Shown: positions 11,507-26,694 of the stretch, in pieces | Layout of the letters: the number at the start of each line of letters is the position of its first letter | Position numbering within the stretch: position 1 is the stretch's first letter | IMG/VR virus record: IMGVR_UViG_3300030419_004225 | Location: 1-26,694 of that record | Length of the DNA stretch: 26,694 nt | Reading direction: 5' to 3' (one strand) | Source: a virus | Position numbers and translations under genes: made by a program | Notes under the pieces: generated by a model | Databases searched by the model: none | The model's input: the letters and a program-made list of their open reading frames with translations, nothing else | What the model was told of the DNA's origin: nothing

Positions 11507-14500
11507 ATGAGTTTATTTTCACCCACCTCGTTAAACCTAATACCAACTAATGCGTTGACCTCGTTGTCCAATGCTATGACGGTAGACCGTGAAGAAAAAC
11601 AAGTTGAGCTTGCGTCCACAAACTCTAAAATCTCTAAACTTCAGGGTACGTCAACCTTACGTACTCCGGTACAGGGACGTATATCGGTCTCAAATGCTGG
11701 GACCCCTGCTGCAAGACAACAACAAGAAGCTATGTTAGAGCCAGCGACTAGTGTATCTAACAGCGCTGCCCTTTTGAATGATTCGGAAACAAACCCTAGT
11801 GGAGCCCCTGTATATGTTGAAGGGTCAGTTCCCCCAGAAACCTCCTCGCAAGATGTAAACACGATGAGCACTGAGATTAACGACTATCTCAGCACGGCTT
11901 CGAAAGCAGCTCTGAGCATTAGCGTTATTAATAAAGTAGCAGCACTTCAACAAAAGAGCTCAGCTTTGCAGGTCGAGATTGATAATTTAACTAACACGAT
12001 AGATTCTGCAAATGATATAATTCAAAAAAGGGCTACAGGAGAGTTACCAAACCCTCAGTTAAATATATCTGCGTTAAACACTAATGACCTTCCACCATCC
12101 GTAGCTAATAAAATTGAAACTGCTGCTGCACAGAACGATAAGTATATTGAAACTCAAATCATAGCTCCTTATATTGAAAACCAAAAAATAATCCAATCCC
12201 TCGTAGCTCAAGCCTCAGGAGTTATGTCAGATGTAGAACCAACGTTTGATTTAGATTTTGGTCCTCCTATATCAACTAACGAAAAATTTATATTATCCAA
12301 AGATGGTTTGTATTACGATTCGAGAAGTGGGGATGTACCCGATGTCATACCTTATCCGGTTTCGGCTGATATGTGGAACTTACAATACCCGTCAAATAGA
12401 GGAGGTAGAGGTTTATCATTTACAGAACAGGATGCGGAAAGTACAGTAAACACTATTTTTGATTTAAATGTTCCTTACCAAGAAGAAAACCCTAGAGTTC
12501 AACAATTCGAGCTTTACGACGATGTTTTACAACAATTCGAAGATGATAAACAATCTCACATGACCCAAGTTTCTGGATACATCGCAGAAATATTAGCTAA
12601 TGGGTACGGAGCTACTGATGCTATTGTTCAATCCTACACAGCTCAGTTAGGAGCGGTGGCTTCTGTATATGATGGTAAAATAATAAAAAGAAAAAGACAG
12701 TTAACCATAGCTGCTCTATTTGGACGAGACACTTTTGTAGTGACTAATCGTCAACACCCTCTTGGAGAAGGACTGTTTTTTCAGTACGAACCTCCAACAG
12801 GAAAAGCCTTTGAGTACAAACTTCAATACAAAGATTTACCTGACGCTATTAAAACAATAAACTTGTATCAGTTAGACGGAGGTCAGACGGTTGCGTATAA
12901 TACCAAAACTAAAAAAGTGGTGGATGAAGTAGAATCCGAAAACATTTTAGCAAAGGTCGGTTTTTGGAAAGAGATTCCTCGCATTCCTATAAATGATTTC
13001 TCTTACCTAAAACAAAGCGATATTCCTTTAAACTTACAAAAACAAATTACTCTCTTTTCGGAAGATTTAGATACGATTATTGCTCCTTTCCAAGCCAAAT
13101 ACGTTGTTGGTCCGGATGATGTTCCTTCAACTAGTGTGGATAGTTTAGCTGTAGACCCGATAGGGTTTGGGGATTGGGTTCATAGAGAGACTTCTGGAAG
13201 CTTGAGTGCCACCACCCCTCTCCGAAAATCTCTTACTGATGATATTGTTAGGGATAAGCTTCTTGTCTGTTACAATTTTCTTGACCCGGACGCCGTAACA
13301 CAACCATCAGGAACTTTGTATGCATTAAACAACGCCGCAGAAGGCTCAGACCGGTTAGACGGAAAGCTAGTAGGTTATGATAAATCATTTGTATTCCCTT
13401 CTGGTGTAGGTCAAGCTTATTTTGGAGGTACAATATTTGATGAACGCAGTGCACAAAGCGCTTTATGGCAAAACATAAAAGGTTCTTATGTGAGATTACC
13501 TAACTCTACTAAAAATTACAACACACTCCAACCAAACATACCTTTTAATGGGGTGCGACCTTTGGATAATCTGTTTTATAGTAAAGAAGGTATTACAATT
13601 GATTTCTGGGCGTATGTACCTAAAGTCTACAGGGACATGACTGACGAACATAGGTACCGACTTGTATTCGCTAACGAAAATAGCGGACCCGTACGTTCCG
13701 ATTACGTTACAGCTGCTTCTCAATCCAAAGCGTCCCCGGGTCCAGGGTTACTTCCGGGAGGAACTAACTTTAATCGTACCATAGGTATGATAATGGGATG
13801 GAGGGACCGCGGTTCTCCTGCGGTAGCTGGAGCCAACACCAGTGGACTTGAGTTTTGTATTGCTCCAACGGTTGGTCAAAACCAAAGTTACGACACTACT
13901 CCAACAACAACATGGGGACATAGTGTCTGCATCGCTGAAACATGGGATACCTCAGCAGGAAACTCTCCTTCAGCAGTACAAACTAAACAAGTAGGTATGT
14001 TTGTTCCTAGTTCCGTATTAAATTCAAGTGGAACTGGTATACAAGATGTTAGCTCTGGCTATCATCACATTAGTATTGCTTTTGATTACACAAAAGAGAA
14101 GGTTAATTTTCATTTAGACGGGGAGCTATTAACAACCTCTTCTCTAAGTGATGTTTTGGGAGGTAACCCCGACGACACCGTTTTACCAACCAGCGTCAGT
14201 ATGGATTTAGAAGACCGGTCAGACGTTATATTTTTTAACGACCCAACGACGGAAAGCTTTTTAGGTAATACAATTTATGATGAACGTTGTACTCCTGAGC
14301 GAGTGGCTTTCCCGGTGTTTACGCCATGGATTATTGGCGGTGGATACACCGACACAATCCCTAAAATACCTGGAACGGATTACAAACCTCAAGGTTTCTT
14401 AGGAAGTAATACAAATAACACCCACCAAGGCACGACTAAAGGTGATGCTTTGGCTACAACAACTATCGGTGGGGAGATTTACCCCATAGGACAGCACGAC

Positions 14501-14677
14501 CCACCACTCTCGGCTCCAAGAGGAGGAGCAACCCCAACGCGAATAATCCCTAGAAGTGGTTTGGATGGATATATTGGAAGTTTTAAGATTTACACAAGAG
14601 CTCTAACTACTACTGAGGCTACTAAAAATTACAATAGCCAAAAAGGGTTTTTCAAAAATATTCTCTTGTCTAGTTAA
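11507..14677 (+). CDS. Large structural protein with coiled coil and C-terminal LamG-like (concanavalin A-like) domain
   Basis: The 1056-residue protein has a low-complexity, Ser/Thr/Ala-rich start, a coiled coil at about 134-176 (NKVAALQQKSSALQVEIDNL), and an unassigned middle. From about 583 it has the usual elements of a LamG-like jelly roll: LLVCYNFLDPDA, EGITIDFWAYVP (about 695), YHHISIAFDYTKEKVNFHLD, and the C-terminal YIGSFKIYTRALTTTEATKN (1022-1041) followed by Tyr-Asn and GFF. Such domains bind glycans or act as oligomerisation units in phage fibres. The domain is larger (about 460 residues) than the usual 150-200, with insertions. A short sequence recurs: GGTIFDER (641-648) and GNTIYDER. 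It lies between hub genes and gp25, where T4 has no counterpart. AGAAGA just upstream may serve as the ribosome binding site. Confidence 0.7.
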   Translation: MSLFSPTSLNLIPTNALTSLSNAMTVDREEKQVELASTNSKISKLQGTSTLRTPVQGRISVSNAGTPAARQQQEAMLEPATSVSNSAALLNDSETNPSGAPVYVEGSVPPETSSQDVNTMSTEINDYLSTASKAALSISVINKVAALQQKSSALQVEIDNLTNTIDSANDIIQKRATGELPNPQLNISALNTNDLPPSVANKIETAAAQNDKYIETQIIAPYIENQKIIQSLVAQASGVMSDVEPTFDLDFGPPISTNEKFILSKDGLYYDSRSGDVPDVIPYPVSADMWNLQYPSNRGGRGLSFTEQDAESTVNTIFDLNVPYQEENPRVQQFELYDDVLQQFEDDKQSHMTQVSGYIAEILANGYGATDAIVQSYTAQLGAVASVYDGKIIKRKRQLTIAALFGRDTFVVTNRQHPLGEGLFFQYEPPTGKAFEYKLQYKDLPDAIKTINLYQLDGGQTVAYNTKTKKVVDEVESENILAKVGFWKEIPRIPINDFSYLKQSDIPLNLQKQITLFSEDLDTIIAPFQAKYVVGPDDVPSTSVDSLAVDPIGFGDWVHRETSGSLSATTPLRKSLTDDIVRDKLLVCYNFLDPDAVTQPSGTLYALNNAAEGSDRLDGKLVGYDKSFVFPSGVGQAYFGGTIFDERSAQSALWQNIKGSYVRLPNSTKNYNTLQPNIPFNGVRPLDNLFYSKEGITIDFWAYVPKVYRDMTDEHRYRLVFANENSGPVRSDYVTAASQSKASPGPGLLPGGTNFNRTIGMIMGWRDRGSPAVAGANTSGLEFCIAPTVGQNQSYDTTPTTTWGHSVCIAETWDTSAGNSPSAVQTKQVGMFVPSSVLNSSGTGIQDVSSGYHHISIAFDYTKEKVNFHLDGELLTTSSLSDVLGGNPDDTVLPTSVSMDLEDRSDVIFFNDPTTESFLGNTIYDERCTPERVAFPVFTPWIIGGGYTDTIPKIPGTDYKPQGFLGSNTNNTHQGTTKGDALATTTIGGEIYPIGQHDPPLSAPRGGATPTRIIPRSGLDGYIGSFKIYTRALTTTEATKNYNSQKGFFKNILLSS

Positions 14678-14679
14678 TT

Positions 14680-15090
14680 ATGGCACCATATGATTTAAAT
14701 TACGTTAAAATACCTTCTAAGGAAAGAATCTTAGGAGTAGCTTTCCCCATGATGAATGAAGGGGTGGGTGGATATGTTGCACAAAACGAAAATCTTAGGT
14801 CATTACGAGATTGTGTAGTGCAGTTAATCCTAACAGGACGAGGCTCTAGAGTTTTCAGACCTGATTTTGGTACAGATTTAAGAGCGTCCGTTTTTGAACC
14901 ATTAACTGACGACATGATAAATGTTCTAAGAGAACAGATTTTAGACTCGATAGCCACATATGAACCTAGGGTTATTGTGGACAGGCTAGAACTAATTCCT
15001 GATTTTGAAAACAACAAACTCAGAATACAACTTTATATCAAATCAAAAGATGATTTACTAACCGCAGAACTTGTGGAGGTTCTTGTATAA
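14680..15090 (+). CDS. gp25: Baseplate wedge protein gp25 (GpW/gp25 family)
   Basis: The 136-residue protein is a clear gp25 homologue, close to T4 gp25 in length (132). It nucleates the wedge and contacts the sheath initiator ring. The signature runs NENLRSLRDCVVQLILTGRG (37-56), SRVFRPDFGTDLRASVFEPL and the diagnostic E95-P96-R97-V98 in ATYEPRVIVDRLEL. Despite the 'lysozyme-like' label sometimes attached to this family, no catalytic activity is expected. Two bases separate it from both neighbours, and it lies directly upstream of the gp6-like gene, the usual wedge order. No strong Shine-Dalgarno is present, so coupling to the previous stop is likely. Confidence 0.95.
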   Translation: MAPYDLNYVKIPSKERILGVAFPMMNEGVGGYVAQNENLRSLRDCVVQLILTGRGSRVFRPDFGTDLRASVFEPLTDDMINVLREQILDSIATYEPRVIVDRLELIPDFENNKLRIQLYIKSKDDLLTAELVEVLV

Positions 15091-15092
15091 TT

Positions 15093-16724
15093 ATGGCAAC
15101 TAACACCGACTATTCCCGTTTTTTCCAAGGTCTGTATAATATATCAGGCTTCGATGGCACTATTGAGTCAGACTTTTTAAAATTAGGTGAAGTCCCGAAT
15201 GATAAAAAAGAGGATTTGATTGATTATAACATTAACGGGTTTGACCAGTATAGAGCTGCCTTACAAAACTATTTGAAGAGCGTCTACCCCACAGATTATA
15301 ATAACTTCGCAGCTTCAGATTTAGGTCAAATGTTGTTAGAAATGTACGCCTACATGGCGTCGGTGCTTGCTTTGCGAGCTGATATGACGGCTAATGAAAT
15401 GTATATCGATACTGTAAAAAGCGAAGACAATCTCCAACGTCTACTTCAGCTTATCGGAGTCAGTATGAAAGGACCGACAGCGTCTAAAGCTACAGGATTA
15501 CTTACTTTTCCATCGACGGCTACTCCTACAGGAAATATTATAATTGAGGCTGCTAACAGAACCGTACAAGTAAACAATCAAAGAAGCAATACTCCTCTTA
15601 CTTACACCATCACTAAACAAACAAGTAATGGTGATTTGGATTTATTTAATAAAGATTTAACGTTAACAGCGGCTGCGGACTTCGCAGGAGGACAATACGC
15701 AAGCGGTTTGTTTTTGTTAGAAGGTACATTCAACACAGCCCAAGGAACTTTTAGAGGAGGTGTAAAAACTAGACAGACTTTTGAGATTACCGACGGTCCT
15801 GTTATTGAAGGAAGTATAGGAGTTTCATCCACAGAAAATGGTGGAACGCAATACAATGAGATTTCAAATTTATTTTTGGCGTCCGGAGGCTCACAGCCGG
15901 TATTCCAAAAAGATTACACTGGAGGGTTTGGCGCTATTCTTACATTTGGTGACGGAGTTAGAGGACGTCTCCCAACTCCCGGAAATGATTTTGTAGTTAC
16001 GTACAGAACTGGAGGAGGTGGTAACGGAAACATCGCACAAGGAAGTTTAAATACAACCGTGACTGTTTTAAATAATGGGTCTACGGGTGTGGATGCAACT
16101 TTAACCAATAGTACAAAAGGGTCTGGAGGAACCCCCGCGGAATCGGTAGCACACGCTAAGAGATACGCACCATATTTCTTCAGAACACAATACCGAGCAG
16201 TGACCGGAGAAGATTATAACGCTTTAGCTAATTCTTTTGTGGGAACTGCTGGGACGACTGCTAAATGCATGGCATCTCTGAGAAGCAACGGCGCAGCCGC
16301 GAACGTTATCGATTTGTTCGTTCTATCTAAAGCATCTTCTAATCAGTTAGAAAGAGCTTCGGTAGCGATGAAGAAAGAGCTGTTAGATTATTTTAAAAAT
16401 TATAAAATGTTAACAGATGATATCGTTATATCTGATGGTGTAGTAAGAACGTTGGATATAGTAGCAACGCTTTACATCGATAAATCCAATAAACGTTTTA
16501 TTGATGCCATCCAACAAAAAGCAGCAGACAAGTTACAAGAATATTTCAACGTCGATAATTTATCTTTTGGACAAAAAATAAGTATGGCGGACGTCAACAA
16601 TTTTATGTTAACAGTTCCTGAAATTAGATTTTTTAAAGTAGATAATCTTCCGGAAGACATTTATGTTAACTTTAATGAGATTGTGCAATTAAACAACTTT
16701 GAATTTAATACGGAGCTAGTATAA
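15093..16724 (+). CDS. Baseplate wedge protein, gp6/gpJ-like
   Basis: The 543-residue protein is the dimer-forming wedge component that builds the inner baseplate ring. The N-terminal third shows the typical helical part: YPTDYNNFAASDLGQMLLEM (about 69-88) followed by AYMASVLALRADMTANEM and YIDTVKSEDNLQRLLQLIG. The middle is a beta domain with LTFGDGVRGRLPTPGNDF (about 283-300). Then comes the family hallmark RTQYRAVTGEDYNALAN (about 364-380), equivalent to the 'R-A-V-T-x-x-D-Y' motif of P2 gpJ and T4 gp6. The C-terminus has alternating helices and strands as expected. T4 gp6 is 660 residues, P2 gpJ about 300. A GGAGG about 13 bases upstream may help initiation. It sits between gp25 and the gp7-like gene as in other contractile phages. 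Confidence 0.88.
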   Translation: MATNTDYSRFFQGLYNISGFDGTIESDFLKLGEVPNDKKEDLIDYNINGFDQYRAALQNYLKSVYPTDYNNFAASDLGQMLLEMYAYMASVLALRADMTANEMYIDTVKSEDNLQRLLQLIGVSMKGPTASKATGLLTFPSTATPTGNIIIEAANRTVQVNNQRSNTPLTYTITKQTSNGDLDLFNKDLTLTAAADFAGGQYASGLFLLEGTFNTAQGTFRGGVKTRQTFEITDGPVIEGSIGVSSTENGGTQYNEISNLFLASGGSQPVFQKDYTGGFGAILTFGDGVRGRLPTPGNDFVVTYRTGGGGNGNIAQGSLNTTVTVLNNGSTGVDATLTNSTKGSGGTPAESVAHAKRYAPYFFRTQYRAVTGEDYNALANSFVGTAGTTAKCMASLRSNGAAANVIDLFVLSKASSNQLERASVAMKKELLDYFKNYKMLTDDIVISDGVVRTLDIVATLYIDKSNKRFIDAIQQKAADKLQEYFNVDNLSFGQKISMADVNNFMLTVPEIRFFKVDNLPEDIYVNFNEIVQLNNFEFNTELV

Positions 16725-16726
16725 CG

Positions 16727-19700
16727 ATGAGGATGTCGGACAAGGGACCCGGACAAGAACATTTTAAAGCGAATTACATAGAAGTAATTCAGCGGATTAT
16801 CCCTGATTTTTATGAAGAGAATGAGTACAACTTGTTCGGACAAGAAGAAGATTTACAGTACAGAGTTCTAGGTTCTATTTTGTACCTAGCGTCCAACACC
16901 TCAGCCTTGATTGGCAAACCCACCACTTATAATTTACAAGTATCTTCTTTTAGTAGTAACGCTTCTTACACTCCATACTACGTTCCTTTTAATGAGTTAA
17001 CAGATGTTACCCCAACCACGTACGAAAATTACGTACTGCGTCCACTAGGGAAAACGTTTGCGAGCTTTCCCAACCGAGAAGAGTTTGAGGCTTTCCTTCT
17101 TACGTCTGCCCTACCGTCCACACACCCTAATTATGTAACTGAAACGTTCGCTCAGGGCTTTAGCGCCACAGTCGGGTCCACCTTCTCTTCCGTCTCAGCA
17201 GTCAGTAACGAATTGATTGATAAATTAGGGTGGGTGTATTTTCAAAATACGTCGGGAACTGTTGTCGATTCGAACTCTATTCCAGTAAGTTCTTATGTTT
17301 ACAGCTCAATTGTTGATAATCTTTATTACGGAAAAAGTATCCTAACCTCGGATGGGGTAAGGAATATGTTCAAATGGATGTATCGAAATGCTGTCGGCGG
17401 TGGAGCGGCTTGGGAAGATGTTAGAGCTAATTATTTACCCGCACCTTTTAGCAGCCCATCCTCTACGTATGTTGTTGCAAATGGTAAGACGGAAAATTAT
17501 TACGCTTCCGGAGCCCAACTGGTAAGCGCATTAGACACTTTAGTAAATGTTTGGGTGAATGAGGATGACCCCAACTCTCTGTATTTTAGGGATATTGTAA
17601 ATGCGTCACTCATGGGGTTAGATGTAAACCGTATGGAAAACGCAGGTCCTATGAGCAAAATGCTCAAAGCTATCGCATACGGGTTTTATGATGTAAAAAC
17701 TTCTATTAGAGATATTCAATACTTGTTAGATATTGAACAATGTCCAGACGAGTTCCTACAGTACTTAGGAAGATATCTGGGGTGGACCTTTTTTACTGAG
17801 GAACCTGATAAATGGAGAGACCAACTTAAACAAGCCATTTATCTTTACAAAGCCAAAGGAACTAGACAAGCATTAGCTAACGCGGTCAACATGGTGATTC
17901 CATCATCAGTTTATAACCCGGTCGCTGAAACTTCAGGTCTACAAGAACTGTGGGAGTCTTATGTTCCTAACCTCATCTACTATACTTTAAAAACCGAAAC
18001 AAATTTAGGTAAAGAGAATTCATCATACCTTTCGTTTAAATCAAATTGGAATGAAGCTCTAGAATCGTCAGGCATCCCAATGTCCGTTCGTAATTTTGAC
18101 CCTAACGACAAAGATAAAAATGTTAGGTTTGCGACTGATGCTGTTTTAGAACTCCTAAATGAGTATTATAATTATTTGTACATTGGGGGTCTTCCTTACA
18201 AAGAAACAGACTTTTGGAAATCACAAGAAGTACGTAAATTTAGAAACAAAACTAATGGGTATGAATATCGAGGTGCTCTTCTGCGGATACCTCCGTGGGA
18301 AGAAAGTAGATTTTATCAAAATTGTCGTATAGGTCCTAACGTTGATAACTTTGTGAGAAGCTTATCATCCGTTCTTTCTCGTAACTTTGAAGAAGCAGGT
18401 TGTGGGGTTGAGGTCTCTGCTGCTAATAATGTTGCTAAGTATATCCTTAGTGGAGTCGAGATAAAAACAGGAGAAGGTATTGACGAACCGGGATGGGGAG
18501 CAAATAATCATTTTAAATTTTTTACATCGTCTCTAAAACTTCCTTACAATTACCAACACGTTATTAGAGCAGGTGATTTGGAAAGCATGAGCGTCTTCGA
18601 TTATTGGAACTCCAAATCATCAGAAGTACACTCTAAGTTTTTTGCTTCTGCTATAGATTTTTCTTCTGATGGGCTTACTAACGTTGCTAAAACCAAAATT
18701 GGTAAAAAAGGTCTTCCCGCTGTAATTGATATATTCAGACAATTCGCTCCATTCCATACATTAAACAAAATATTTGTAGGTTCTGGAATCACAGATTATT
18801 ATTATCGCACTCGTCAAGACGGCACCTTACCTGGTGTAGCCTGGTCAGGTATACAAAACATTGAAGTTATAAACACCATTCAATCAGATATGGACCAGCT
18901 TCACAGTACGTATACCACATCGGCTTTCCCAGGCGCATACGACTCATTTGGGACGTTTAGTGGTGTAGGGGTGTTCCCATCCATATTTAACCCGAAAGAC
19001 GGTAGATGGCTACCTTCTGCGACTCTGTATGGAAGTAAAGGTACTGGACCCCAAGGATACTTCTGGAGTGGTGGTGGTAAAGTTGAACCTGCGGGCAAAG
19101 CTAGTGTAGCATATAAAGCTTTGTTGGCGCGGAGAACCGCAGGACGAAGAAGAAATTTAAAATATAAATTTACTGGCTGGGCTCAAAACAGAGAAGGTTT
19201 GAACCAACCTATAGCGACTGATTGGTTTGGTGTCAGTGGAGTGTCCATACAACCAGTATTAAAAGCACGTGGACTCAACTTACCAGGGTTTGTACCTAAA
19301 GGTTTTAACTTCTCCTCTCAACAATTTGTCGATACAAGTGGAAGTCTCTCTTCTGTTTACTCATACTACAATTCATCTGCAACTCCATTCTTTGAATTCC
19401 ACGGGTCTTCTTTCTTTCCTCAACGAAATATCCCTGGTTTTGAAACTAACGCATCTAGCTTTAATCAATTGAGAGACGTGTTTGGCTCTCAAATATTAAG
19501 AGCTATGACGAACATTTTTATCCGACGTGGTAAAGAAGATTCGCGATGGTTGAGATTTACTAACCCAGGATTCGATAATTTTAAATTTGGAACGGGAGTA
19601 CAATCCCTGTACCAAGAATACAATACGAAGTTTGGTAGGAACTTACAATGTTGGATTGACCAAAACACTCAAGTGGATGGAGACCGTTATGCTGGTGGGT

Positions 19701-21616
19701 TTAATATTATAGCTCACGTGTTTGGTCCATTACTATTCAATCATAATTTTTCTATAAAAGGTAATCTTCAAAACTCTTTAGGTTCGCAAGCATTTGCTAC
19801 GGCGTTTGGCGGTTCTATTTCTTCTACACACCCTGATTGGAGTGGGGTAATAGCAACCCCAGCTGTCACTCAAAACAATGTTTACTTAAACGCGTCTGGA
19901 GGACGTGTTGATTTAACCGAAGGTATCTTATCTCCAGGAGCCTTTGGAACCTACTCAAACTATTTGGATGTGTTTGAAAATCCTTCTGACGTAATACTTG
20001 CAAATAAAACTGTTTTGTCAGGCATTGAATTTGCTGCTGGAAACGTAAACAGTATTGCAGTTTGGAACAATTCCAATAACGTAGGGTACAATATGGATTT
20101 GATTTCTCCTAGTGGGATTACATTCCTTCAACGTCACGTTACCGACAACCCTATTAGAACTGTACGTGCTAGATTTGCATTAGATGGTAATACTAATTAT
20201 TCGTACAACGGCAAATTATTATATGCACCGCGAGACCGTGCGCGTGAGAATGTATCAACGTCAGCCGTTGCGGGATGGGCTATGTTCAGTGACACCAGAA
20301 CGCCGATAATTAATAGCGGTGGAAATGCAGGACATTCTTCTAGAACGATTTACTTTAGAGACGATTTAGGAGGTAGCTCCTTACCGTATGTGGGAATGGT
20401 TGGTAGAGGTGGAACTTCTGGAACCGGCACCCATGGCGTTCTTTCAGGTGTATTAGGAACTAAACAAAGTGTTGCCTTTGGAACGGTATCTGACCCGTCC
20501 GAAAGGCTTACTCCACCTAACTTACGTCCTCTAACCCCTTCCAACAGGTATAAGATTTCTCTAGAAGCTTCTTGTATACATTTGGCTAACAACAGACTTA
20601 CTTATGCTTTGTTTAACGAAACCAAACTTAAACAGTGGGACCAACCTAATGGTAGGTGGAGGGATAAAAATACAACCACTTTCTCATCTAATCTGGTAAA
20701 TGTTTTAACTAGCGGTGGTCCGACAAGTGGTTACGCTCCAGAACCCGGGTTCAGAGTTTTCACAGGAGTTATCACTCCTTCGTCAGTGTTCGAACAAGGT
20801 GATAATTATCGATTAATGATTGCCCCTGCTTCCCGAGCTAAAACAACTATAAATGGTTATCAAATTAAAAATATAAAAATAGAAGACTTTGAAATACCGT
20901 CTAAATTGGCGGGAGGAAAACAAGGAAACAAATTATTTAAAAACGAAGAGTATCATTTAGGGATAACTGCTCGTGTGGCAAAGATTGCAGCCGCGGGCGC
21001 AGGAATAAGAGATGAGGACTTGTATGTTAGGTTGGTAACAGACCCCAAACCTTTTGTAGGTAATGGGTGGACTGATGTTGCTAGAAATTGGTGTTTTAAT
21101 TGGAACTCATTGGCTTGGTCTGATGCAAGAGAAACTGCTAACTCCGACCAATGGAAAAAATTAACTTTCGAAGGGAGTTCAATAGACAGCCAACGACACA
21201 TACTAGAGTTCAACACTATGAACCGTAGAACCCCTTTAAAATACGGTTCGTTATCTAAAGACGGTCCTTTGGGAGGTTACTTCGCATCCGCAGGTCCTGT
21301 CCATAATGATGAGACTGTTTATTATGTTGAAATCGGAAAGCCGGATGCAACAGGGGAGTTTAATGGAGTAACATTATTAAGCGTAGATATTGTCAACAAA
21401 CGCTATAATATTTATGCACAAGACTATATCCGAAAAGACTTTGCGGACATATTCGATTTCTTTGATGATTTAAATGTAAGTAAATCGTCCAGAGATGCGC
21501 AAGATTCGTCGGGAACCTACCTACTATCAGGTGGTAGCCGAAACGAGTATCTGGAGTGGTGGGGAGGAAGCCATTCTGCTACTAACGGAGTATACGGATT
21601 TAAAGAAAATGATTAA
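16727..21616 (+). CDS. Very large baseplate wedge protein, gp7/gpI-like N-terminal part with beta-sandwich modules C-terminally
   Basis: The 1629-residue protein (T4 gp7 is 1032) links the inner wedge to the periphery. The recognisable gpI-type block is at about 339-385: CPDEFLQYLGRYLGWTFF, then DKWRDQLKQAIYLYKAKGTR and QALANAV. The N-terminus (IEVIQRIIPDFYEENEYN) and the region near 640-690 (RQFAPFHTLNKIFVGSGITD) also fit. A basic stretch LLARRTAGRRRNLKYKF lies near 799-815. From about residue 1270 two beta-sandwich-like modules appear, with NRYKISLEASCIHL...LFNETKLKQWDQPNGRW and EYHLGITARVAKIA...NWCFNWNSLAWSDARET. These are like modules in the next protein. An alternative start is the ATG at 16733. 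The gene overlaps the next by eight bases if that gene starts at 21609. Confidence 0.8.
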   Translation: MRMSDKGPGQEHFKANYIEVIQRIIPDFYEENEYNLFGQEEDLQYRVLGSILYLASNTSALIGKPTTYNLQVSSFSSNASYTPYYVPFNELTDVTPTTYENYVLRPLGKTFASFPNREEFEAFLLTSALPSTHPNYVTETFAQGFSATVGSTFSSVSAVSNELIDKLGWVYFQNTSGTVVDSNSIPVSSYVYSSIVDNLYYGKSILTSDGVRNMFKWMYRNAVGGGAAWEDVRANYLPAPFSSPSSTYVVANGKTENYYASGAQLVSALDTLVNVWVNEDDPNSLYFRDIVNASLMGLDVNRMENAGPMSKMLKAIAYGFYDVKTSIRDIQYLLDIEQCPDEFLQYLGRYLGWTFFTEEPDKWRDQLKQAIYLYKAKGTRQALANAVNMVIPSSVYNPVAETSGLQELWESYVPNLIYYTLKTETNLGKENSSYLSFKSNWNEALESSGIPMSVRNFDPNDKDKNVRFATDAVLELLNEYYNYLYIGGLPYKETDFWKSQEVRKFRNKTNGYEYRGALLRIPPWEESRFYQNCRIGPNVDNFVRSLSSVLSRNFEEAGCGVEVSAANNVAKYILSGVEIKTGEGIDEPGWGANNHFKFFTSSLKLPYNYQHVIRAGDLESMSVFDYWNSKSSEVHSKFFASAIDFSSDGLTNVAKTKIGKKGLPAVIDIFRQFAPFHTLNKIFVGSGITDYYYRTRQDGTLPGVAWSGIQNIEVINTIQSDMDQLHSTYTTSAFPGAYDSFGTFSGVGVFPSIFNPKDGRWLPSATLYGSKGTGPQGYFWSGGGKVEPAGKASVAYKALLARRTAGRRRNLKYKFTGWAQNREGLNQPIATDWFGVSGVSIQPVLKARGLNLPGFVPKGFNFSSQQFVDTSGSLSSVYSYYNSSATPFFEFHGSSFFPQRNIPGFETNASSFNQLRDVFGSQILRAMTNIFIRRGKEDSRWLRFTNPGFDNFKFGTGVQSLYQEYNTKFGRNLQCWIDQNTQVDGDRYAGGFNIIAHVFGPLLFNHNFSIKGNLQNSLGSQAFATAFGGSISSTHPDWSGVIATPAVTQNNVYLNASGGRVDLTEGILSPGAFGTYSNYLDVFENPSDVILANKTVLSGIEFAAGNVNSIAVWNNSNNVGYNMDLISPSGITFLQRHVTDNPIRTVRARFALDGNTNYSYNGKLLYAPRDRARENVSTSAVAGWAMFSDTRTPIINSGGNAGHSSRTIYFRDDLGGSSLPYVGMVGRGGTSGTGTHGVLSGVLGTKQSVAFGTVSDPSERLTPPNLRPLTPSNRYKISLEASCIHLANNRLTYALFNETKLKQWDQPNGRWRDKNTTTFSSNLVNVLTSGGPTSGYAPEPGFRVFTGVITPSSVFEQGDNYRLMIAPASRAKTTINGYQIKNIKIEDFEIPSKLAGGKQGNKLFKNEEYHLGITARVAKIAAAGAGIRDEDLYVRLVTDPKPFVGNGWTDVARNWCFNWNSLAWSDARETANSDQWKKLTFEGSSIDSQRHILEFNTMNRRTPLKYGSLSKDGPLGGYFASAGPVHNDETVYYVEIGKPDATGEFNGVTLLSVDIVNKRYNIYAQDYIRKDFADIFDFFDDLNVSKSSRDAQDSSGTYLLSGGSRNEYLEWWGGSHSATNGVYGFKEND

Positions 21617-24600
21617 AGGTAATATAGAAATTTTTCAAAGCTATGGTAATAGCCACAAGAGCTTGTACAAAGGCTCCAATATGGTTGTAGATGGTTTTAG
21701 AAAAACAGTTGCTGATGTAATGACGTATATGCCAAATCCTAGTGGTGGTCCTATCGGAGGGGCTGGTCCTATTGGAGCCAGCTCAGTGTCCAGTTATCAA
21801 ATACAAGCGATGACCTTGGGAAGCGCTAAAGAAAGTTATAACCAAAGAGGTTCTCGTTATTGGTACAGCTCCATTGCCACGTCAGGAAACAATTATCAAT
21901 TAGCACCTCTTAACGACAATTCTGTGTTTGAAATGTGGGATTGTTATTCAGGTATAGGGTTTAATCAGTGGAAGTATGATAACGTGGTAGATGCCAACTT
22001 GCTTACCAACCCAACTCTCAAAAATTTAAATGGTTGGACCGTAAACTACCTCAATAATGTTAGTGGTGCGATACAACCCCAAACGGACATTACATCAGAA
22101 GGCGAAATTGATATTACTAAGTTTGAACTTCTAAAAGGTCAACAACAAGTAACCCTGCGTCAATCTCTTCCCACAATGGAGTTGGGAGGAGTGTACACTT
22201 TTTATACCAACGGAAAGGCTTACAATGCTACGATGGATATAAGAATTAGTCGAGGACGTAATGACGTTCCAGTCGAATACTATAATTTTTCTACGGAAAA
22301 ATTTGAAAGTTTAGACAGAGACAACAAAAATTTTAATCACACTATATCGTTAAAAGATTATTATGATGTGAATGAGTTTCGTGTTAAGCTAAGAGGTAAC
22401 AAAAGAGACCAAGCGTTCTCTGAATACCAACAGTTTTTTGTCGAGTATGTCTTCCCTTCTTTCGGGTTTATCGACACGACTTTCGCACCTTGGGAACAAA
22501 ACTACGTAAACCCTTACATAAATATTATCAGGTTAGAAGTTTGTGATGAACGTAACCAAATACTGAGAAACCCTAACTTCTTAGAACATCAAAGCCAGCT
22601 GGTTAACAACGATTTTGATATCACTGCGCAGTTCCCAAGCACTGAAGCAGCAAACCCGACCGCGTGTACCCAGGCAGGTCTCTTCAAACTTCCAGGATGG
22701 AACCAACTCAATCCGTTGGTAAAATATTCAAACGACCCGGGAAATAGAGAAACCGCTAACGGATTGGGAGCTGTGTTTCCTTTAGCGACCGATTCAGGAA
22801 GAATATTTTCGGGAGTTCAAGGAGTGTCTCTGTACACTTCATCAAATGATTTGGCTTCTAGTGGTACCGCATTCATTGAACAAACTTTTAATTTAGGAAA
22901 TGATTTTAGAAACAAATTTGCATTTACCACCCCTCTTACACCAGACCCTAATTTATTAGACCAAGCTAACACGCAGTACGATAACAACGCTACTATGATG
23001 CTTTCGTTCGATACCATGGTGTCAGGTCAATCAACAGCTGCTAATTGTGGTAATTTAGAAATAACATTAGTACGAGATAGTGATGGGTTTGAGTATAATT
23101 TTGCGGCTGACCCTGTAACTCAAATAAACAATGTTTTTTCTCCTAACGGCTCACCGTTAAAAATTTCTTACGACGCTAAAGAGACTTGGTACCAGAACGG
23201 CGTCCAAGTTATGTTACCCGCAGACGCTTCTCAACAAACTTACAGTTTAAATATTAGAGGAACTGGTCGGACGGACGCGAATGGATTCTGTTATTATTCT
23301 ATTAGAAACTTTTGTTTTGGTCCGTTAGCTGGCTGGAGAACATACGTGTTTGACCAAAGTGGTGTAGCAAAATGGTCACTTAGCTCTACCGGCTGTAGGG
23401 TATCGTCAGGAAATATTTACTCTGGGCTGATGTTAAGTTCGACTCGTTATGCAAGCTTACCAACGGATAGCTATGCGAAGGTTAGAAACTCCATAAACTT
23501 AACCCAAGCTCCTACCAAAACTCAACTCGTTCAAAACTTTGCAGGATTAGAACCAACAAAAACTTATCGATTAGCTGTAAAAGGTACAATGAGAAATACC
23601 GCACAGGTTCCTGGGTTTAGTTATATCTTAAAAGCTAAAGCCCGAACATCTAATCCAAATAACTACAATCTTTTATCGTTATGGATGAGGGATTCTTTAG
23701 ATTTTAGTGCTACCAACACACCTACTAATCTTAATCCGTATTCAACAAACTCTTTAGCGACCAGAGCGACTCACCCGTTTTTCTGTAATGACCTAGCCTC
23801 TAACAACACTACTCCTTTAGATTGGGGATTGTATGTGGGAGCATCGGACTCAGGAGAACAGAATTACATCGTGTCAGAAGATTTGCGAGCTAATCCTGGA
23901 GAATATACATTGTCTATGAACGTTTTTAACGAGACAGATGCGGGTTCTTACTTTGTACTTAGTTCTACAAACCAACTGACTTCGGTATTCTTTAATTGGG
24001 ATACAGGAGAATGGGAAGACATTGTATCAGGGGAAGTTCCTTCGTATAGAAACTCTACGTCAGGCTCATATTTCTTGAAACTTCCTGACCAAGCTACGAC
24101 CGAGAAAGGTACAAAATATACGTATCCTAAACCTATTGTTTTCCCTGAGGTTGAAGACAACGCATTAACGTTTTTTGACGATAAGACTTTAGATGGAGAA
24201 GGGAGTCGCGGAGCCTATAAATTTACTGCTGCGCTATATGGACCCAATGCTGAAGCAGGACGAACTTTGGTTAGCGACTTAGCGTTGGATGGCCCAGGTT
24301 TAGGTCCAGCGGTAGATGTGTGGAAAGAGTTGTATTATAACTTTACAGGTCAAAACTGGCAACCCACACCTGTATCCGCCAATGATTATTATTCCCAAGA
24401 CTTAGAAACGTCCCCAGAAAGTTTTATATCTACTCCTCAATCCTTAATTTCTAAAATGTGTTTGTATGGATTAGACCGCGATACTGAGTACCAACTTAAC
24501 ATCGTTGATACGTCAGGAGGGATTTATTGTATTCATGATGTAAGCCTTCAAGACGCTGCGTTAGTTAACAACAGTGGTAGAAGTAGATGGATTAGAGACC

Positions 24601-26123
24601 CTAAAGTTTGGACAACCGAGCCTTATGGTCAAACTCATTATGATGATTATTTGGATGGCGCTGTTTTTAAACTCAGTAACATTACTACAGGAACTACCAA
24701 ACTTCTAAGTAACACTACCTCACCTTCAGCTATGACAGCATGGACTGTTAACGGAAGTATGATGTTTAGAGCTACTTCAGGAGACACGGGAACAGCCACC
24801 GACCCAGGTATTATCGTTCCTACTACGAGAGTGCTTAAAACCCGTAGTACCGCGTTTGCTCCATGGCTCACTCAAAACTTTACGTTGGATGAGTACGGGT
24901 TAAGTGCAGGAAGTATGTTCGCTGTAGGTTTAGAGGCTATCGGTATAGACTCAGCTACGGACAAAGTATCAATGTCAATTGCTGCGAAGTATAATGGGGT
25001 AAGATACACTTATAATCCCGTATCACAAGAATGGAACCCGGGCGTTGAACGTGAAGTTGTAACTACCACTTTGTATGATAGAGGAGCACAAAGTGCTGAT
25101 GAATTTTATGCGGATGCTAAGACATGGAATCAACTGTTGTCTCCTAAAATCCCTGTTCCTACTTTTGGACCTGCTACCAAGATAACTGCTAGTTTTAGAA
25201 TGGAATCAGGAGGAGCTGCTCTTCGTAGTATGGATATAAAAGATTTTAAAGTCTACAAATGGACGGACGCCACTCCTCATGTGTATCGAGTATCGGGGGA
25301 TACGTTTAACTTCCCTGAGTTCCCGAAACCTGCGGACACCACTTTACAACCTGTACAAGTTCCTGGAAAACCAGGAGAGCTTGGACATTTTTTGAACAGA
25401 ATAAATTTCTTTAAGCAATACCCAGCCAAATTAAAAAGCCAAGCGACCGGAGCGAATCCTGATGTTAGTGGTATAAGAGCAATTAATAACCCTATGTCTC
25501 CATCCGTAACCGGAGAAAAAACTTTGGAAGAGGCTGTGACCATGGGAGCGTACCTACCATCAGCAGGACTCTTCTTTGGCTCAGGAACTTTCGGTGTAAG
25601 AAACACCCAACAAGCTTATGGACTATCACCAAGTGCTGGTTTGGTATCCGGAGTTTTAAATCAAATGGGAGTAGTTAATAGCGATGGGTATATTTACCGA
25701 CACCCTCATGCTCCTACAAATAATGATGCACGTGATGCGAGTGCTGGGTTCTTAGTATCCTCATTCTCTTCTACAGTCGGAGCCTCTTATGGAGGGTATG
25801 GCAAAAAGACTTTGCGTTACATTCTCAAATTACATAAAGACGATTGGCGTTTCCTAGATTATTACATGGGAGGTCTTGGTGCAATAGGATTAAACTCCTT
25901 AGATTACAAGAAAACTTACGCCAAATTAGGAACCGGATATCAGATAAGTGGAACCGGAGCATCATATTCAGCGGGTTCTCGTGTGAGACTATATAAAATA
26001 GCAGACCCAACCAAAAACCCTATTTTTAATTTAACGAACAAGAAAGTAACTTTCCCTCCCGGATTAAAAATAGACTACGATAACACAGACCATATAACTA
26101 TAATATGGGATATTAATTATTAA
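21609..26123 (+). CDS. Giant adhesin-like baseplate/fibre protein with tandem carbohydrate-binding-like modules (1504 aa)
   Basis: I place the start at 21609; an ATG in the same frame exists at 21495, but it would add 38 residues that overlap the gp7-like gene and have no counterpart in the next gene, whereas MIKGNIEIFQSYG matches the start of that gene. The protein begins with a short attachment-like domain (GNIEIFQSY, LYKGSNMVVDG, YQIQAMTLGSA at 64-74) and ends with GAIGLNSLDY (1424) and DHITIIWDINY. Between lie many beta-sandwich-type modules: NLLTNPTLKNLNGW (near 129) and ILRNPNFL (near 316) are openings typical of galactose-binding/CBM-like domains. Strand pairs with the Tyr/Phe-Asn...Trp motif occur at about 220, 791, 907 and 1131. 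A receptor-binding or surface-glycan-binding role is inferred. No enzyme motif is visible. Confidence 0.68.
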   Translation: MIKGNIEIFQSYGNSHKSLYKGSNMVVDGFRKTVADVMTYMPNPSGGPIGGAGPIGASSVSSYQIQAMTLGSAKESYNQRGSRYWYSSIATSGNNYQLAPLNDNSVFEMWDCYSGIGFNQWKYDNVVDANLLTNPTLKNLNGWTVNYLNNVSGAIQPQTDITSEGEIDITKFELLKGQQQVTLRQSLPTMELGGVYTFYTNGKAYNATMDIRISRGRNDVPVEYYNFSTEKFESLDRDNKNFNHTISLKDYYDVNEFRVKLRGNKRDQAFSEYQQFFVEYVFPSFGFIDTTFAPWEQNYVNPYINIIRLEVCDERNQILRNPNFLEHQSQLVNNDFDITAQFPSTEAANPTACTQAGLFKLPGWNQLNPLVKYSNDPGNRETANGLGAVFPLATDSGRIFSGVQGVSLYTSSNDLASSGTAFIEQTFNLGNDFRNKFAFTTPLTPDPNLLDQANTQYDNNATMMLSFDTMVSGQSTAANCGNLEITLVRDSDGFEYNFAADPVTQINNVFSPNGSPLKISYDAKETWYQNGVQVMLPADASQQTYSLNIRGTGRTDANGFCYYSIRNFCFGPLAGWRTYVFDQSGVAKWSLSSTGCRVSSGNIYSGLMLSSTRYASLPTDSYAKVRNSINLTQAPTKTQLVQNFAGLEPTKTYRLAVKGTMRNTAQVPGFSYILKAKARTSNPNNYNLLSLWMRDSLDFSATNTPTNLNPYSTNSLATRATHPFFCNDLASNNTTPLDWGLYVGASDSGEQNYIVSEDLRANPGEYTLSMNVFNETDAGSYFVLSSTNQLTSVFFNWDTGEWEDIVSGEVPSYRNSTSGSYFLKLPDQATTEKGTKYTYPKPIVFPEVEDNALTFFDDKTLDGEGSRGAYKFTAALYGPNAEAGRTLVSDLALDGPGLGPAVDVWKELYYNFTGQNWQPTPVSANDYYSQDLETSPESFISTPQSLISKMCLYGLDRDTEYQLNIVDTSGGIYCIHDVSLQDAALVNNSGRSRWIRDPKVWTTEPYGQTHYDDYLDGAVFKLSNITTGTTKLLSNTTSPSAMTAWTVNGSMMFRATSGDTGTATDPGIIVPTTRVLKTRSTAFAPWLTQNFTLDEYGLSAGSMFAVGLEAIGIDSATDKVSMSIAAKYNGVRYTYNPVSQEWNPGVEREVVTTTLYDRGAQSADEFYADAKTWNQLLSPKIPVPTFGPATKITASFRMESGGAALRSMDIKDFKVYKWTDATPHVYRVSGDTFNFPEFPKPADTTLQPVQVPGKPGELGHFLNRINFFKQYPAKLKSQATGANPDVSGIRAINNPMSPSVTGEKTLEEAVTMGAYLPSAGLFFGSGTFGVRNTQQAYGLSPSAGLVSGVLNQMGVVNSDGYIYRHPHAPTNNDARDASAGFLVSSFSSTVGASYGGYGKKTLRYILKLHKDDWRFLDYYMGGLGAIGLNSLDYKKTYAKLGTGYQISGTGASYSAGSRVRLYKIADPTKNPIFNLTNKKVTFPPGLKIDYDNTDHITIIWDINY

Positions 26124-26124
26124 A

Positions 26125-26694
26125 ATGGACTTTTTCGATAAATCAAATCCTCAAGGACACTTAGAAATCTGGAAACATTATCCAGATGGTAGCAAGGAGC
26201 TGCATTACAAAGATGATAACGTAATTTGTAGTGGTATGGGAGCAACCCTTTCTCAAATGTTTGACGCTGACCCAAATACGGACGTCGAAAATTTTCAAAT
26301 GGTATATTTTCGTTGTGGCTCTGGTGGAACTGCTGGAGCCCAAGTTTCTAGTACTTCTGATGTTGTTACACCTTTTGTAAGAGCGCAGTATGGAACTGGC
26401 AACTTAGACATGAGTATTCATAACTTGATTGCGAACGGAGCCAAAACTACTAACAAAGCTTTTGGCAGAATACCTTACGGGTACATCAAACGAGTTAGTG
26501 ATACTAAATGTATGTGGCAAATTGTTTTAGATGAACAAACATTAAACGTGGGGGATGCCACCGCTTCTTACCCCGCTGGATATATAAACGAGATAGGATT
26601 GTATAGTAAAAATCCTTTTGTAGAAGGGACAGACGCTTCTATGTTATGCGCGTATCGGTTTTTCAAACAAATAGCAAAGACCGACGCATTTATT
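26125..26694 (+). CDS. Short baseplate/fibre protein paralogous to the preceding gene's scaffold, cut by window edge
   Basis: The frame is open from the ATG at 26125 to the window end, 190 residues without a stop. The N-terminus GHLEIWKHYPDGSKELHYKD, then NVICSGMGA and FQMVYFRCGSGG, matches in order and spacing the N-terminus of the 1504-residue protein (GNIEIFQSYG, NMVVDG, YQIQAMTLGSA). Near the edge, YINEIGLYSKNPFVEG (153-168) and AYRFFKQIAKT match that protein's C-terminal GAIGLNSLDY and following strands; the usual ending '-I-x-W-x-I-x-F/Y' should come soon after the edge unless more domains follow. It probably attaches to the baseplate periphery as a fibre or fibre-base protein. It follows the previous stop by one base, with no clear Shine-Dalgarno. 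Confidence 0.7.
   Translation, partial: MDFFDKSNPQGHLEIWKHYPDGSKELHYKDDNVICSGMGATLSQMFDADPNTDVENFQMVYFRCGSGGTAGAQVSSTSDVVTPFVRAQYGTGNLDMSIHNLIANGAKTTNKAFGRIPYGYIKRVSDTKCMWQIVLDEQTLNVGDATASYPAGYINEIGLYSKNPFVEGTDASMLCAYRFFKQIAKTDAFI

Follow-up and report, generated by a model that had tools for sequence, protein, structure and literature searches.

The window, that is, the whole stretch of DNA analysed here, comprises 26.7 kb from an uncultured marine virus and contains a contractile-tail baseplate operon, in which genes for gp53, a spike protein, gp25, gp6 and a Tail_P2_I protein are followed by the gene for a 1504-residue protein (B) and by that for a second, shorter protein (S). The first part of the operon comprises gp53 (PF11246/phrog_7145) and a spike with a Phage_base_V OB domain, located before gp25. 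A gp25-like baseplate wedge subunit (14680..15090, + strand; PF04965, E 1.6e-13), a gp6-like baseplate wedge subunit (15093..16724, +; phrog_219, E 3.8e-35) and a gpI/gp7-like protein with a Tail_P2_I domain (16727..21616, +; PF09684, E 2.4e-6) are encoded directly upstream of B. About 1,200 residues of the latter protein lie outside the Tail_P2_I domain and have no family match, possibly representing more binding modules. Between the spike region and gp25, the window also encodes a 1056-residue protein without a family match (11507-14677), the C-terminal part of which resembles, by eye only, a LamG/concanavalin-type domain. The reading frame of B starts at the ATG at 21609 and contains 1504 codons; its start overlaps the end of the Tail_P2_I gene by 8 bases, and a single base separates its stop from the start of S. 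The S gene (26125..26694, +) is truncated by the window edge after 190 of ~199 residues, and complete copies are present in the related loci L002-L017.

Relatives of these genes were collected by pattern-plus-tblastn scans of IMG/VR and subsequently by profile scans for remote ones, and B followed by S was found in many contigs (loci numbered L...). S is always ~190-220 residues long across these loci. B, at the same gene position, comprises compact orthologues of 336-427 residues, which contain no additional module, as well as forms of 591-650, 1198, 1440-1579 (including the window protein with 1504), 1691, 1952 and 2132-2161 residues. When 50,697 phage records were searched with B by tblastn, no match was obtained, and S matched only three Vibrio phages among the phage records, with 29% identity. 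A compact-B profile (373 HMM positions), built from 37 compact proteins with no giant included, matches window B in exactly two collinear pieces, with HMM positions 1-82 aligning to residues 2-86 (E 6.8e-13) and positions 131-329 to residues 1233-1454 (E 2.1e-8). In profile-profile comparison, the second piece reaches the C terminus, with compact residues 218-382 corresponding to window residues 1345-1504 (E 3.9e-11).

B divides into four segments, all on the + strand. The N-terminal scaffold half (residues 1-86; 21609..21866) contains strands 1-2, a helix and strand 3, and is followed by a giant insertion of 1,146 residues (approximately 87-1232; 21867..25304), which has no counterpart in compact B and stands in place of ~48 HMM positions. 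The B-specific scaffold middle (residues 1233-1384; 25305..25760) is present in compact B and absent from S, and the C-terminal scaffold half (residues 1385-1504; 25761..26120) ends with the last core strand. An earlier note, made from the sequence alone, had described B as a ~200-residue scaffold shared with the next gene and split by a huge insertion between residues 110 and 1380. The insertion between strands and the shared core are borne out, but the boundaries move to 87 and 1232. Furthermore, since compact B carries ~150 additional residues between its halves that have no counterpart in S, the 200-residue scaffold corresponds to the shared core, and the uninterrupted form of B itself has ~340-420 residues (336-427 in the compact orthologues).

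Both genes and all motifs cited in support of the duplication are present as described, with QIQAMTLGS at residue 64 and GAIGLNSLDY at residue 1424 of B, and FQMVYFRCGS at residue 57 and YINEIGLYS at residue 153 of S. The N-terminal ends of B and S align by BLASTP over 42 residues with 31% identity (E 3e-5), a score that was reached in none of 1000 shuffles. Contrastingly, the C-terminal ends are at chance when compared pairwise as single sequences (shuffle p 0.50), so relatives were needed to judge the proposed similarity. A first hhalign comparison with 11 close relatives missed the C-terminal match, as the alignment was too shallow. Deep profiles recovered it (score 35.6, E 2.7e-5, compared to 19.6 for the best of 100 column shuffles), and profile comparison of the N-terminal half of B with S gave an E value of 5.7e-10. 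Profile-profile comparison, which had been suggested as a check, thus places a block shared with the N-terminal half of B at S residues 10-66 (26152..26322, +; also found by BLASTP) and a block shared with its C-terminal half at S residues 128-190 (26506..26694, +), with the last strand of S lying past the window edge. Conversely, a profile of compact B residues 96-262, which make up the B-specific middle, did not match S. In many loci, a third gene, encoding the protein M, is located between B and S, and M is a full-length paralogue of S (probability 100%, E 2e-50). In relatives, S stops after ~199 residues, and its final strand resembles the one at the end of B; S is therefore complete at this length and does not continue into a different fold. 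At the level of sequence comparison, these results support that B and S are paralogues, and the proposed duplication of a scaffold common to the ends of the large protein and to its neighbour holds in both halves and in the structure models described below.

Structures were predicted with AlphaFold2 for compact B (L068, 386 residues; pLDDT 74, pTM 0.82), which yielded a moderate model, and for S (L012, which shares 94% identity with window S across the part present in both; pLDDT 90.8, pTM 0.87). The order of core elements is identical in both models, consisting of two strands, a helix, a strand and then four C-terminal strands. These correspond to residues 2-10, 16-23, 29-37 (helix) and 61-65, followed by 271-278, 294-300, 338-345 and 372-380, in compact B, and to residues 10-18, 24-31, 36-47 (helix) and 59-65, followed by 128-135, 154-161, 171-183 and 190-198, in S. 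Foldseek alone found nothing significant in the PDB for either model, and its candidates were realigned with VIA-align, upon which the leading chains were the same for compact B and S. The HFTV1 tail chain 9h4p_BD aligns with residues 1 to 384 of the compact B model through its residues 387-510 (121 residues, 2.8 A, Z 6.2) and with S through residues 379-507 (128 residues, 2.7 A, Z 9.2). Additional matches include phiKZ gp139 (9xpg; Z 6.3 with compact B and 8.5 with S), the phi812 arm segment (9fko_A; Z 5.0 and 6.5, respectively) and A511 gp105 (6hhk_C; Z 6.6 over 110 residues with S). The Z scores of around 6 for compact B, being moderate, carry weight only through their agreement with S and with the sequence profiles. 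Since residues 1 and 384 of compact B map to one contiguous HFTV1 domain of ~125 residues, both ends of B lie in a single domain, in agreement with the earlier proposal that the two termini of the large protein share one anchor. The structure comparison that had been suggested for the large protein, made here through the compact B and S models, gave the same core order and matches to the same solved domains for both. A BFVD search with the S model also returned predicted proteins from tailed viruses of haloarchaea and from filamentous viruses of archaea (such as B2CRN3 of Betalipothrixvirus uzonense, TM 0.74), a spread that would be unexpectedly wide.

The comparisons demonstrate a two-piece scaffold, its paralogy with S, compact orthologues without the insert, and inserts of varied size and site. 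Based on these results, we consider it very likely that B is a baseplate-wedge attachment protein in which ~1,150 residues were taken up by the loop that connects core strand 3 with the B-specific middle, so that the ends form one anchor domain and the insert a tethered projection, most likely for host binding. The N-terminal (1-86) and C-terminal (1385-1504) strands would co-fold into a small beta-rich domain like S. This anchor domain would occupy a baseplate position adjacent to the wedge proteins of gp6/gp7 type, as we infer from gene order and from the fold of known relatives, and the two scaffold halves would be kept together on the wedge by their common core. As the insert exits and re-enters at one loop, it would be displayed as a tethered projection, which would most likely present a host-binding surface.

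Searches of Pfam, PHROG and PDB sequences assigned no family to window B. In particular, none of the three returned a carbohydrate-binding or lectin family within the insert, and the carbohydrate-binding-like modules that the earlier note proposed there are without a match. Module-level internal repeats were not found in the insert. Mean identity to 18 homologues is 50% in the insert and 64-70% in the scaffold parts, and a lower conservation of the insert is what would be expected for a host-binding surface; dN/dS is uninformative for B because synonymous sites are saturated. The insert is probably the receptor-binding part of B, whereas carbohydrate as its ligand would be a guess made by analogy. 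A less likely reading, although one that retains some weight, accepts the scaffold and the insertion as described but regards the insert as structural (bridging or arm-forming) or enzymatic (e.g. a depolymerase) rather than as an adhesin. The lack of a carbohydrate-binding or lectin family in the sequence searches is consistent with this, as are the weak Pfam matches to the glycosyl hydrolase family 36 C-terminal domain in two of 11 homologues (E 0.0029) and the fold relative A511 gp105, which is the part of an arm that attaches other receptor-binding proteins (PMC11406892). However, the insert is both the fastest-changing part of B and optional, and comparable inserts in Vp4 Gp119 and, in the examples described, evolved Dit proteins serve cell binding, which argues for the host-binding interpretation. 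A hairpin-like pattern (Y/F-N-aromatic-or-P-x(4)-W/F), chosen after inspection of the sequence, occurs at residues 224, 794, 909 and 1135 of window B, and a similar motif is present at residue 1457 of the product of the preceding gene.

Insert sites on the compact-B HMM are located near positions 50/58, 82-86/99-131, 181/186 and 316/318, with an additional wide gap at ~199/270 in L055, L056 and L075; those sites that were placed on the compact model fall in loops. The window-type giant insert uses the second site (82/131). Single modules of ~220-250 residues occupy the second site in L063-L065, L076 and L095, site 181/186 in L140-L145 and site 316/318 in L123, L127 and L128. The second-site module of L095 and the 181/186 module of L140-L145 are related (E 4.5e-10 over 217 columns). 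In an unrooted S tree, the giants group together, with the long-branched L039 apart, the one-module forms cluster yet use three different sites, and the compact forms make up the remainder. The B protein of L095, a locus outside this tree, has its closest relatives among compact B proteins. This distribution fits repeated gains of modules. M carries a long C-terminal extension (862-1355 residues in total) in L063, L065, L076, L123, L128, L141 and L144 and has ~217-272 residues elsewhere; growth thus took place at the end of M but in the loops of B. One one-module relative (L154, QCKN01000003.1) is contained in a Prochlorococcus single-cell assembly. Window B residues ~1380-1439 (25746-25925) share ~97% DNA identity with L008, as opposed to ~70-82% over most of B, which suggests recent recombination inside the C-terminal scaffold half, judging from the nucleotide comparison.

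The unrooted tree, which places the window-type giants in a single clade alongside the compact proteins, is also compatible with an ancestral giant form from which compact B arose by loop losses, and parsimony is the basis for preferring gain of the insert over its loss. We regard an ancestral giant form as improbable, since inserts of this kind are absent from S, from M and from the fold relatives with solved structures. Moreover, both the use of three sites by close one-module sisters and the presence of a module in L095, despite its B being closest to compact B, fit gains better than many partial losses. That the terminal regions of B are unrelated, sharing no more than a common short phage motif or chance similarities, is highly implausible. 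Pairwise comparison does find only the N-terminal motif and places the C-terminal one at chance, but the independent profiles match in two collinear pieces and the models agree, contradicting unrelated terminal domains.

Going beyond the insertion in a single protein, the B scaffold might act as a general plug-in platform, an idea that we put forward tentatively and hold to be somewhat short of an even chance. At least four surface loops would take foreign modules, with related modules at different sites, the conserved halves would serve as recombination handles, and the main host-recognition organ of an uncultured marine phage lineage would be built by loop insertion and not by fibre-tip addition. 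With lengths ranging from 336 to 2161 residues, the proteins encoded at this syntenic position illustrate in natural variants how loop insertions can convert a baseplate part into a candidate adhesin. Furthermore, the approximate boundaries at 86/87 and 1232/1233 allow the scaffold and the insert to be expressed separately, and families of unknown function (phrog_5417-like proteins, B, M and S) become tied to one baseplate fold of phiKZ, phi812 and an archaeal virus.

Among known systems, B is similar to T4 gp8 in following gp6- and gp7-type genes (6-7-8 in T4; gp25-gp6-Tail_P2_I protein-B in the window), and T4 gp8 is close to compact B in size. Despite this gene order, T4 gp8 reached a probability below 1% when aligned by hhalign to profiles of B, M and S, so that the sequence gives no support for naming B as gp8, and KP1 gp8 (9f4a_A4) aligned only weakly with the compact B model (Z 3.9, 4.8 A, 136 residues). 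T4 gp6, gp9, gp10 and gp11 likewise showed no profile match. By structural alignment, phiKZ gp139, the phi812 arm segment and the HFTV1 tail domain (9xpg, 9fko, 9h4p) appear to have the same core fold as B and S, with scores below Z 8 for the phi812 arm segment and A511 gp105 chains, and without a detectable sequence family in common with them, and the matched HFTV1 domain is contiguous (~125 residues) and lacks a giant loop. No chain of the A511 gp105/phi812 arm segment family was retrieved from the PDB by the S or compact B profiles at E values up to 10.

A close parallel is baseplate wedge protein 3 of the Bacillus phage Vp4 (Gp119, 831 residues), which contains two carbohydrate-binding folds and binds host cells, while Gp177 of Deep-Blue (341 residues) and gp105 of the Listeria phage A511 lack these folds (PMC11406892). 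Like B, this family includes wedge proteins with and without extra modules; however, the extras of Gp119 are two recognised carbohydrate-binding folds of ~490 residues, whereas the insert of B has ~1,150 residues and no recognisable domain. The two are not recognisably related in sequence. In the evolved Dit proteins of lactococcal skunaviruses, internal carbohydrate-binding inserts have been reported to change host range, and the N- and C-terminal ends align to the full classical protein, with the internal insertion adding host binding, as we infer for B (PMC10688798, in the sections drawn on here). B has the same organisation, with both of its ends matching the uninterrupted form in the two-piece compact-B alignment. 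In contrast to B, evolved Dit is a siphophage protein encoded by another gene at another position, its inserts comprise 168-319 residues in the examples given, and those sections describe no neighbouring paralogue (PMC10688798). B is encoded among contractile-tail wedge genes, and the matches of the B and S models described above are to other baseplate domains. With Gp119 and evolved Dit as precedents, the principle of loop insertion is already known, and the architecture that the earlier note called unusual is uncommon but has counterparts. What this lineage adds, to our knowledge, is an insert of this size, the variety of sites, the graded set of forms and the neighbouring paralogues.
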